Positions 47,416 through 59,241 of a DNA stretch of 59,241 nt are shown here, in pieces. Position 1 is the first letter of the stretch; every line of letters begins with the position of its first letter. The notes under the pieces are model-generated. The model searched no databases, was not told where the DNA came from, and saw only the letters and a program-made list of their open reading frames with translations. Both the position numbers and the translations under genes were made by a program. The stretch is from Candidatus Absconditabacterales bacterium (lineage in GTDB: Bacteria > Patescibacteriota > Gracilibacteria > Absconditabacterales > Absconditicoccaceae), in NCBI GenBank assembly GCA_025057375.1, contig JANWWO010000010.1, forward strand, positions 1-59,241, given 5' to 3'.

Positions 47416-50298
47416 CTATTTTTTGTTCTCTTCATACGGCAGGGAACCTTGGTCATCAGAATTTTTTTTCAAATACACTACTCTTCAGCATACCTTTCAA
47501 TATGGTGAGAGATAAACTCGTGCATTTTCACAGAAAATATCTCTATACCATCATGATACAGATATTTTTCATTGGACATTGTGTAAAGGAGGTTGTCAAA
47601 GAAGAGTATACGGAAGATAGCAATCATGATACGATCAAGGAAATTGGTGAGAATCTCCTGTCACTACAAACGTACATCCACTAAACACATTATTATCAAA
47701 ATACTGTGCAATACGTTCGCATATAGACTCCCCATCCCCACTAAAGAAAATAGTAGAGTTGCTTATCGATTCTTTCGCGAACAAATCAAGATATTCTTCA
47801 TTTTTGGTGGATGCACAGTGTCAGAGATGCTCCTGCCACAGCCTAGGAAGAGCAGAATCGTTCAATATAGGAAGAATAAAATGCTTATATTCTCGATCAA
47901 CGGATGCGAAAGAAAATTGTTGTGCAGATCACATATACACAACCTCCAACTTACTTGTACCGTTTTTGGTTATCACATGACGATAAATAATAACATCCTG
48001 CATCTGAAGCGGGAATACATTACTATCGGGATTTAGTGGACGAGGCTCTCCTGACAGAGGAGGGAAAAGAAAACGATCAGTCACTATCGATCAATCCTTT
48101 GTTGTATATCAAGAATCCAGAAGAACACAGTTGTCAATATAATAAGGTCTTCTTCTCCTACTTGTTACACTGTCCGTTCAAGCCAACAAAGAAGCGTTTA
48201 TAACAGATGATCATATAGTGACTAAACAATCTGGATGGGATGGTAGATTATTCGTAGCAAGAATTCCTTGCACATGAAAATATGACAAATACATAAGTGT
48301 CGAGGGAAGCTGATATGCCAATCATCCTATGATAGCAAGTGATCTAAGAGAGGGGAATTGCGACACATCAATAATACCTCCATCGCTACCACATCACATT
48401 GTGACGGTTATAGTATGAATAGTTCATCTTACCGATTCTGGCAACAAAGGTATATCAACATCCTCAACAACAAGTGTGTGAGGAGATCAGTGCATAGACA
48501 AAAATCATGGTTGCTCAGAGGATGAAGACAAAGACAGTGGTGGTTGTTTTATAACTAACGTCTCACCATTATTTCTATATTCATAGACTAATAACTGAGT
48601 ACCAATCCATGGCTTTTGCCTAATAGATCATCTATCGACCATCTGTCAATCTCACGAAGAAGCTACAATACGATAGTAATTTTTTAAAAGCACAGAAAGG
48701 AATTCAACGATCTTATCCTTATGGTTTGTATCTGTCCCATCACCATTTATAAACAACAATGCACACTTTTTAATAAATCATCAAACATCATAGTATCCCT
48801 GTACAAAAGGAATACCCAACTGATCACATAGGGGGTAAAGATTATTGAATCTATCCTCACAAGGAATCGTCAGATAAAACAAATCGTGTTGATATCTAGC
48901 AAGAAGTGAATCCTTTTGTATAATTAGCTTCAAAAACTCCTCTTCCTGTTGTCGTTTTTCATGAATATCACGGTATCATAGTGAATCAGCACTTCATCAG
49001 GAAGGGGTATTTAAAGACATAATAGAATGTGGCAATGTAATGGGACCTCAAAATTGTCGTCAATTGCTACGAGCAATAAACTCTGTTCACGATGATGCAA
49101 TCGAAGGAGTTAAATCATAATATTGCACTCGTGGCTGGGCGGGATTACCATCAACGGGAGGATCATATCATCACACTGCCATCAAGGCATGAGGATATGA
49201 TCATGGACTATCGAAAGATGGATATTCTGCGTCCACTCTATAGATAACAACAGGCAACAAACGAGCAAGCAACGACAAAAACGTAGGAATCGTAGTACAT
49301 ACACCTTGGATTCAAGGATATCAATCGATCAACGCGTTTGGAACCATCAAAACAGCTTCAGCATATCAAACTCAGTCACCGGGCTGCGCATATTGTCCTA
49401 CTGTTGACGAATAATTATACACTGAGTGCTTGAGCATGATCTGCACAATGGTTTCTATCTGTTGTTTTGGCGAAATTTGATCATCATCAATGATATAAAG
49501 AATCTCCGCTATCCATGGAAATTGTGGCATTGCTTGCTCAAGCAAAGCTCTTACCCTTTTAGTCTCGTGTGGATCATCGTTGGTTACTTTGTCAATAAAA
49601 GCAGGTTGAAATCGCAAAGGTAAAGGAGACACAGTAGAACGTCCAACGTACAAGATTGTTATTCAACTATCTGTAGAACATCATCTCTGTACTGTCAAAA
49701 TAGGAACACTTCAAGAGAATGCAAGATTAAAGGAATACGTATCGGGGAGAGAAATCGCTACTAGTTCTTCTCATAGTTGCAGAGGCAGAGGAATAACCTG
49801 CCCTGTCTTCAATGAGCTAAGTTTGAGTGTATATGTCGTTTGTCATGGTTCTTGTGGTAATTGGTCATTTTCCCCTAGTAGACGAAGTCATCAACGAACA
49901 GTCTGCGAATCTGTACTAGTCCATAATGTAGGAGCATGAGCATAAGAATCAGATAGTTGTCTAAAACCATAACACAATGGCTTGAGTCGACGTGGATGTA
50001 TCGAAAGCTCAAAGGGAAGTGTGGGTGATGTACGTGCAGCATCTACTCCAACAAGATAGTCGGCATCAAAAGACAATGATGGACGAAGATTTTTTTTGGG
50101 TAACTGAGAGATGGTAGATGCAGTATCCTTGATGGTATACACATTTGACGTATATGATATAATATCAGAGCCGGGAATACTCAAATTTTTTTGACATCAG
50201 CTGATAAAAAGTGAGCACAACGCAACTGCAATAAAATGCAGGCATTGACCCCTCTGAGAGAGGACATATTTATAGGCGTTATCCGGAATCTTGTTCAT
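47416..50298 (-). CDS. Large lipoprotein with transglutaminase-like domain
   Basis: 960 residues in one TGA=Gly frame. The signal peptide ends in a lipobox FISGCQ whose Gly is TGA. Around residues 325-420 a transglutaminase-like core shows GVCTTIPTFLSLLARLLP (Cys), SYPHALMAVGGY (His) and VQYYDLTPS (Asp) in the right order and spacing, so a papain-like protease or crosslinking role is possible. The rest is beta-rich, with several cysteines (TVTMGCGSDGG, SHPDCLVTIG). It lies convergent to the SbcC-like gene with 28 bp between stops. Confidence 0.75.
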
Positions 50299-50566
50299 AA
50301 AAATATAACAATAAATACAAAAACTGTCTAGTAGGCTATTTATTTTTGACAGAAAATGCAAGATATTTTTAACATTCCTTACTTATATTTTACCATACAC
50401 AACTAATAATAATGATAGGGAGCTTTATATCATATAATACATCATGGTGATAAGAAGCATATAACAAAAAAGAAAAAAAAATGCAAGCAAATACGTGTAA
50501 GGAAAAAAATAACGATCTACACATTGAACGGAACATGAAAGTCATGTCGTGAAATATGACACGTTC
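50299..50566. other. Upstream region of the transglutaminase-like lipoprotein
   Basis: 268 AT-rich bases between the lipoprotein start and the end of the broken gene. No gene is seen. It should hold the lipoprotein promoter on the minus strand. Confidence 0.5.
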
Positions 50567-57603: not shown

Positions 57604-59241
57604 ATGGGAGGACAAACCAATCCCAACAATCAAATAGAATATTGCACGTCTGCGGCAGAACATTTGCCTCCGGCAAAAAATCTTTTGCAAGATAGCAAAA
57701 ACACTATTGCTCAAGTGTTACAGTCTCGCCCATACAAAAAATTTTTTGCGACTGAAGTAGGCAAACAAGAAATCCTAAAGAATCTCAAAATATGAGAAGA
57801 TTTTGATGGTTTACAATTGAGACTCAATCAAGCAACAAAATACTTGAGACAATTTGGTGCACTTGCAGAAAATACGGATCTCAGCACAGAACAACAAAGA
57901 GCCATCATCAATGCACACAATCATTGCTGATCACAACCTGCACCTATCAGACAAGCATGACAATCTGATGAAGCATATGCCAAAGCATATAGCAGACGAT
58001 ATAACAAACTCATCGTCGAAAAAAAAGCTATCCTCACACAGGGGTGAGTATTTTCTCCTATCCAAGCAGATATCCTCGTTAGGAGTGGGGTGTGTGGGTC
58101 TCGAGAAGATGCCTTTGGTAAGCTCAATATCAAACAAGCTACAATAAAAGAGAGTATAGAAGCAAAAGGAGAAGAAGTGTTGTCAATCGTACAACATGAC
58201 CCTGATCTCAAGATATACTTCAGTGAATGATCAGAAAATGAAGAAAAGCTCATAAATGCATTAGTCAAATACTATGGGAGACAACAAGGAGACGCAAGCC
58301 CTGCAACAATCGTCGATGCGCTCAGGGATGTGTATACATACGATCCAGACGGTAATCAGTCGTTTCCTCTAAGAAAAAAGCTTCTCGAAAATAAGACAAT
58401 AGATATATATAATCTCTCTACAATTATACAAGAACACAGAAGAATTGGTAACGAAAAACTTAAGCAAATGAAAAAAAACCTCGCTGAATCAGACAAAGAA
58501 AAGGCCGTGCGTATCGAATGATTACCTGATAGATATGCCCTGTACGAATTACATTCTTACCCTGATTTGATGCGTGAAAGTGACCAATTGGATCATTGTG
58601 TGGGAAAATCAGATCATTATATCAATGAACTAAAAAAATGAAGAAGTAAAATCTATAGTATTCGCCATGAGAATGGCAAAAGTCTTGCAACAATAGAAAT
58701 AGTCAAAAATGGTGAATGATACACGATTAATCAATGATACACGATTAATCAATGCAAATGATATCAAGACAAACTATTCTCTGAACAAGCACCATGATAT
58801 GGGATAGTTGTAGAATGACTGAAAGGTATACTAAAGAAGAATACTATTACATGAATAACGTCTGATCTCCACTGATTTCTACATTCATGATCCTCTCTGT
58901 GGTCAAGTCTCACGAACCTCACAACACTGGATTTGAGGTTATATAAATGACAAATCCCCCCAGAGATAGGACAGCTTACGAAACTCACAACACTGAAGTT
59001 GGAGCGTTATACATGACAACTTCCCCCAGAGATAGGACAGCTCACGAACCTCACAACACTGAAGTTGACTTGATATGGATGACAACTCCCCCCAGAAATA
59101 GGACAGCTCACAAACCTCACAACACTGGATTTGAGCTGATATACATGACAACTCCCCCCACAGATAGGAAAACTCACGAAACTCACAACACTGGAGTTGG
59201 GGCGATATAGACGACAACTTCCCCCAGAGATAGGACAGCTC
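57604..59241 (+). CDS. PcfJ-domain protein with C-terminal leucine-rich repeats (3' end beyond window)
   Basis: 546 codons to the window edge, TGA=Gly. A helical N-terminal region (to about residue 290) is followed by a PcfJ-like domain: LMRESDQLDHCVGKSDHYIN (EG-x-x-x-x-HCVG motif), SKIYSIRHENGKSLATIEIV and a terminal Cys-Lys-Gly stretch, as in plasmid-encoded PcfJ. An 18-bp tandem duplication lies at 58717-58752. From about 58903 five 22-residue leucine-rich repeats begin (LTNLTTL, then GQLPPEIGQ). No signal peptide is evident, so it may be cytoplasmic or exported by another route. An in-frame start at 57577 (MFLFFPLYT) is possible. Confidence 0.75.
58903..59241 (+). repeat. 66-bp leucine-rich repeat array running off the window
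   Basis: The string acaacactg recurs at 58921, 58987, 59053, 59119 and 59185, exactly 66 bp apart, encoding 22-residue LRR units of the form LTxLTTLxLxxYxGQLPPEIGQ. Where most units have TGA (Gly) before CAA, the last has CGA, a one-base change. Confidence 0.9.

Follow-up and report, generated by a model that had tools for sequence, protein, structure and literature searches.

A gene that runs off the end of a contig in the genome of a Candidatus Absconditabacterales bacterium encodes a PcfJ domain joined, within one open reading frame, to an array of leucine-rich repeats (LRRs). The window analysed here is the whole of that contig (C1, 59,241 bases), one of the 21 contigs that make up an assembly of 1.13 Mb (completeness 97.03%, contamination 1.86%). 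The protein appears to be laid out as a helical N-terminus, a PcfJ-like domain with a predicted GNAT-type (N-acetyltransferase-like) fold and an LRR solenoid of at least 12 units. The reading we favour, to which we would give a little under an even chance, is that of an intracellular modular protein in which an exchangeable LRR tail directs a GNAT-like PcfJ head, with catalysis, targets and location all putative.

The frame at 57604-59241 is open to the contig end under NCBI code 25, in which UGA specifies glycine: it gives 546 amino acids, with 21 TGA codons read as glycine and no TAA or TAG, and translation with table 11 breaks it into short open reading frames. UGA is assigned to glycine in SR1 in a passage of PMC8080830. 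One of the TGA codons encodes a nearly invariant PcfJ glycine (Gly386), and the glycine at position 14 of the LRR unit is written as TGA in 10 of 11 units. Both profile matches lie above their cut-offs in this one frame, Pfam PcfJ (PF14284) at residues 276-388 (E 5.7e-8, 33.1 bits, cut-off 25) and LRR_14 (PF23598) in the C-terminal part (E 3.7e-14, 52.7 bits, cut-off 40), where residues 436-546 form the LRRs, and no stop or frame break separates residue 420 from the repeats. The fusion of PcfJ to LRRs, which a first-pass annotation had proposed, was thereby borne out. The gene and its parts are as follows.

57604..59241, plus strand: 5' part of the PcfJ-LRR gene; 546 codons (code 25) with no stop before the contig runs out
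57604..58401, plus strand: N-terminal region, residues 1-266, mostly helical (predicted), low model confidence
58402..58890, plus strand: PcfJ-like domain, predicted GNAT-like fold, residues 267-429 (Pfam part 58429-58767)
58594..58599, plus strand: His331-Cys332 (HCV motif), in the loop between the fold's first two helices
58715..58754, plus strand: perfect 18-bp tandem duplication, 2.2 copies, lengthening the loop and strand before the conserved Gln
58750..58761, plus strand: Gln383-x-x-Gly386 (Gly386 = TGA), strand end matching GNAT beta-4
58909..59241, plus strand: LRR array, five complete 66-bp (22-aa) units and the first codon of the next unit
Contig C3, L005:1-522: probable continuation of the LRR array

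Tandem Repeats Finder revealed a single 66-bp array at 58909-59241 (5.0 copies, 81% matches, score 440), and this LRR part has a G+C content of 46.5%, compared with 37.2% for the rest of the gene and 39.4% for the window. Elsewhere in the assembly, sequence similar to the gene occurs solely at the very start of contig C3, which opens with a partial unit and continues with six complete ones, a tail and a TAA stop. From these two contig ends we infer that a single gene, split within its repeat, probably spans C1 and C3, with C3 carrying the 3' end for which the first-pass annotation had suggested extending the contig. Since C1 stops at unit position 1 and C3 starts at position 6, the joined gene should have no fewer than 12 units and 723 residues, presuming that no unit is missing between the contigs. 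The units had been described as exact, which they are not: identity at the DNA level is 79-91% among the five window units and 76-94% among all 11 complete units of C1 and C3. IPPEIG itself is found once, and the remaining units read LPPEI or LPPQI.

The window protein is like the Leptospira-type LRR proteins in having LPPEIGQLTNLTTL units, and LRR proteins of Leptospira phages were matched by tblastn, but it differs from the Leptospira type in its 22-residue unit with a tyrosine and in its fusion to PcfJ. Bacterial LRR proteins with LPxEIGxL motifs are of this type. Asparagine is usual in LRR units at the place where the window protein has tyrosine.

The variation among the units is unevenly placed. 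Eight of the 22 codon positions (4-7, 9, 12, 18 and 20) are identical in all 11 units, and positions 8, 10, 11 and 13 are among the most variable, with 22, 3 and 21 varying too. Positions 8, 10, 11 and 13 are the x positions of LxLxxYx, which presumably form the concave, predicted ligand-facing side of the LRRs. Across the 11 units, pN was 0.508 and pS 0.267 at these four positions, and 0.079 and 0.131 respectively at the other 18, the values being computed between paralogous repeats, which may exchange by gene conversion. Only 4 of 7315 four-position sets, the observed set counted, had at least as many amino-acid differences, a figure that is descriptive because the set was picked from LRR geometry after the units were seen. 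In sequence terms, the pattern fits a ligand face that may be diversifying on a conserved scaffold. Scaffold codons are constrained, so that ordinary LRR constraint explains part of the pN contrast, and gene conversion contributes to the pattern as well. The nearly frozen scaffold also fits an array that was recently expanded, as had been suggested, or homogenised. A diversity-generating retroelement was considered and rejected: the genome (97% complete) contains no RVT_1 (PF00078) reverse transcriptase, and no template repeat was found in the assembly, where the array is confined to the ends of C1 and C3.

In its PcfJ domain, the window protein keeps the HCV motif (H331, C332 and V333) and the invariant Glu, Cys, Arg and Gln of the family (E325, C332, R354 and Q383). 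Glu, Cys, Arg and Gln are strictly conserved in an alignment of 19 phage and patescibacterial sequences (A3), the Cys of the HCV motif is invariant both there and in alignment A4, and Gln383 is invariant with Gly386 nearly so. The 18-bp duplication lies inside the domain, where it gives GYTINQ twice. The domain was modelled with the sequences of 18 relatives (pLDDT 82.7, pTM 0.73); the model of the whole protein had a pLDDT of 67.4, with 84-93 in the blocks 311 to 370. The order of elements in the model is b-b-a-a-b-b-b-a-b-a, which is that of GNATs, and the structure prediction recommended in the first-pass annotation has thus yielded a modelled PcfJ part of GNAT-like order.

Foldseek analysis against the PDB gave a best E of 1.4e-4 (prob 1.00), and 48 of the best 50 matches listed carried titles naming an acetyltransferase, GNA1/GNPNAT1 or an acetyl-CoA complex; TM values on the query against solved GNATs were 0.33-0.47 among these 50, all below 0.5. 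With VIA-align, Z was 8.4-9.7 among the best 50 matches listed, of which 43 were titled acetyltransferase, GNAT or HAT1, and the top match was HAT1 (2p0w_A, 105 residues, 2.5 A, 8% identity). As a best Z of 7-8 is typical without a clear match, 9.7 is moderately above background, and the strength of this model-based evidence is that nearly all of the listed rows belong to one fold. In a viral model library, phage PcfJ-like models ranked first (best TM 0.67), followed by some GNAT-named proteins. At the sequence level, profile searches of the PDB revealed no kinship to GNATs, profile and sequence searches found no relative of PcfJ among its solved structures, and profile-profile comparison of PcfJ with 30 GNATs scored 9.6-11.6, below a reversed GNAT alignment control (12.2-15.0). 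GNATs keep a Q/RxxGxG/A acyl-CoA loop motif after beta-4. At the corresponding element PcfJ keeps QxxG, and the last Gly/Ala is not kept. The PcfJ domain resembles GNAT acetyltransferases (HAT1, RimI and GNA1) in predicted strand and helix order and in fold matches, but differs from them in the missing profile link and the partly kept loop motif. Given the negative sequence searches, our claim is that of a predicted GNAT-like fold, rather than of membership of the GNAT superfamily or of activity.

The same observations leave room for a non-catalytic role, in which a GNAT-like fold, or another look-alike fold, would be a binding platform and the protein a scaffold or sensor that transfers no acyl group. 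The missing profile link and the incomplete loop motif speak for such a platform, as does the HCV motif of the four WG-type members described below, in which His is replaced by Ser or Asn and, in one of these, Val by Leu as well. The strictly conserved Glu, Cys, Arg and Gln, however, look like an active or ligand site, and we regard the platform as on balance unlikely, with a chance that is nonetheless appreciable. The prediction of a GNAT-like fold offers the PcfJ family a concrete, testable biochemistry. PHROGs matched the window protein only to families of unknown function, and none of the open-licence papers examined reports a function for PcfJ or deals with PcfJ in Absconditabacteria. In this literature, PcfJ is listed among shared mobile genes in a passage of PMC10782964 and appears, in the pCF10 context, in a plasmid gene table of PMC3084688; the PcfJ passages of these two papers contain no link to acetyltransferases.

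PcfJ followed by repeats is recurrent in Patescibacteria. The counts differ by query, with Pfam PcfJ found in 5 of 118 relatives and window residues 1-431 in 4 of 288 class genomes; a six-row PcfJ profile detected 10 of 353 class genomes, the rows of the profile matching by construction. In nine of these ten, a repeat or repeat-homologous region follows PcfJ: LRRs in the genome under study (G000), WG-type regions in G012, G048, G001 and G027, and a cap plus solenoid in G070, G191, G300 and G227. In the tenth (G046; L018:2-1153, minus strand), the contig runs out just past the HCV region, possibly because repeats interrupted the assembly there too. G046 also has a weakly GNAT-like N-terminus before PcfJ; by a home-made profile in a six-protein search, such a part scored weakly, with E 2.7e-5 in G654, 2.6e-4 in G046 and 0.053 in G070. 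Within the set searched, only the LRR version is unique, so that the search for other PcfJ-LRR proteins proposed in the first-pass annotation found none among the 353 class genomes and instead found PcfJ with other repeats.

The four genomes with PcfJ-WG genes belong to the same family as the genome under study (f1), and the recovered loci come from two candidate division SR1 entries, one Patescibacteria and one uncultured bacterium. Their WG-type regions are homologous to each other (including alignment A2), and of the two members scanned, Pfam WG_beta_rep passes in G048 and not in G027. These proteins (e.g. in JAPLUT010000006.1 and SKIU01000004.1) share with the window protein a PcfJ domain followed by a repeat-type region, but the region is of WG type, and they are much longer (about 1640-1930 aa), with PcfJ in mid-protein. 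Their N-terminal 600 aa (the SEHWMML region; L087:5977-11439, L088, L089 and L090) are strongly conserved. The cap-solenoid proteins, to which G594 of another class adds a fifth, likewise have PcfJ and then a repeat region, homologous among all five (E 2e-7 or better), but their repeats are of ~20 aa and not LRR_14; the name receptor-L-like that we use for this solenoid was given by eye, and no profile matched the region.

In a phylum-wide sample, Pfam PcfJ was found in 7 of 379 genomes, our own counted. Of the remaining six, the cap-solenoid type occurs in G594 and a 27-bp repeat array in G566; G654 lacks clear repeats, and the proteins of G396, G693 and G592 end soon after PcfJ. G680 was rejected as a PcfJ genome, its match being an SMC protein, so that the count in the 370-genome sample is 6, not 7. 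Periodicity in regions of at least 60 residues after PcfJ was above all 200 shuffles in 8 of 15 proteins (G000, G012, G048, G070, G227, G566, G594 and the viral L067), and not in G001, G027, G191, G300, G396, G654 and G693; the repeat types of G001, G027, G191 and G300 were assigned by homology to clear members.

Because related genomes put other solenoids behind the same head, the repeat tail can be seen as a swappable specificity part, and recognition, one half of the earlier suggestion of a recognition or effector protein, is the natural reading of the repeats. In the favoured modular protein, the concave face of the solenoid would bind a partner protein, and the PcfJ-like head would act on that partner or be presented to it. 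The array would grow by tandem duplication while the residues on its concave side diversify, in line with a changing partner, which could for instance be a protein of a phage or of the host bacterium. Exchange of repeat tails behind one head points to target recognition as the variable part, and should the LRR face of this host-dependent bacterium indeed be diversifying, the nature of the partner would become an answerable question. A bolder version, rather improbable in our view, is that PcfJ is a divergent GNAT-like transferase branch that modifies chosen proteins, turned by Patescibacteria into a toolkit with one enzyme head and at least four unrelated kinds of solenoid to aim it, here serving as an intracellular, adaptive-looking receptor without a retroelement, whose LRR array diversifies at the residues that face the ligand. 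Of greater interest than this gene alone is the wider pattern, one head with several kinds of repeat tail and an enzyme-like fold predicted for its family.

The diversified LRR face would also suit an antiphage or self-recognition receptor, in which the LRRs sense a phage protein and the PcfJ-like head triggers a response, and so would an intracellular location, suggested by the N-terminus of the protein, which has no evident signal peptide, export signal or transmembrane segment by eye (residues 1-266 have no Pfam match). This reading is improbable: none of the PADLOC families matches the window protein, PcfJ itself is common in phages, and the surroundings on both contigs are housekeeping, envelope or unknown genes rather than a defence island. 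The ten flanking genes tested include an SMC/RecN-type protein, MutL, O-antigen ligase, phosphodiester glycosidase, a weak VWA match, RlmN, a DsbA-like thioredoxin and three unmatched genes. No mobile-element gene is among them, so that the PcfJ-LRR gene is not visibly inside a mobile element.

An equally improbable reading is that of a surface adhesin, or of a protein delivered into a host or prey bacterium, which would attach through its LRRs. LRR_14 matches are common in the family, being present in 16 of 49 genomes, and many of these proteins have a hydrophobic N-terminal segment and a large, surface-type look (by eye); in oral Saccharibacteria, LRR proteins are often involved in adherence, according to a passage of PMC7739484. 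The window protein, unlike many LRR proteins of its family, lacks such a segment, and the absence of an evident export signal likewise leaves the effector half of the earlier suggestion unsupported. A PcfJ scan of all open reading frames of at least 120 aa in 20 regions of the family LRR loci, covering 12 of the 16 LRR-positive genomes, yielded no other PcfJ-LRR gene, the best E being 0.0051 (best domain 0.041), taken as a chance match to an LRR protein, and the next 0.11. One LRR protein of the family (L103:3655-4737, minus strand) has several near-identical TTGITSLPESIGNLQNLEKLELS units without an evident export signal, and no acceptable PcfJ match.

It is very improbable that the gene is what is left of a degenerating PcfJ gene from a phage or plasmid, with repeats acquired by chance. 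PcfJ is indeed a familiar gene of phages and plasmids, has a patchy distribution in the class (10 of 353 genomes) and here carries the 18-bp duplication inside its domain, but the frame is intact over 546 codons, the invariant residues are retained, the lengthened loop and strand are still formed by the model, and none of the ten flanking genes tested belongs to a mobile element.

PcfJ had been introduced as usually a conjugative-plasmid protein, a view that has to be revised, since a relative of one patescibacterial PcfJ protein was found in 260 of 50,697 phage records and the family is thus not mainly plasmid-borne. The window protein matches the profile of this phage and conjugative-plasmid family and shares its invariant Glu, Cys, Arg and Gln, but the members examined whole (three phage and one plasmid) end with PcfJ, and the window protein adds the 22-aa LRR array. 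A0A6J5L638, a viral model named leucine-rich repeat, was rejected as a phage PcfJ-LRR protein, being absent from the best 50 PcfJ-only matches listed; in another search it aligned over 468 columns. The huge-phage LRR locus L123 had no acceptable PcfJ match. Query P0002 gave no result in phages, genome contigs or viral contigs, nor did P0009 and the G594 protein in viral contigs. Elsewhere in the window, positions 47416-50361 (minus strand) encode a 981-aa protein with no Pfam match. A viral contig protein (L067:4983-6491) has PcfJ followed by TVAGGDYS-type repeats, and in Listeria phage B054 (L071:1209-2989) the PcfJ gene comes straight after a gene annotated as a Cas9 inhibitor of the AcrIIA9 family.
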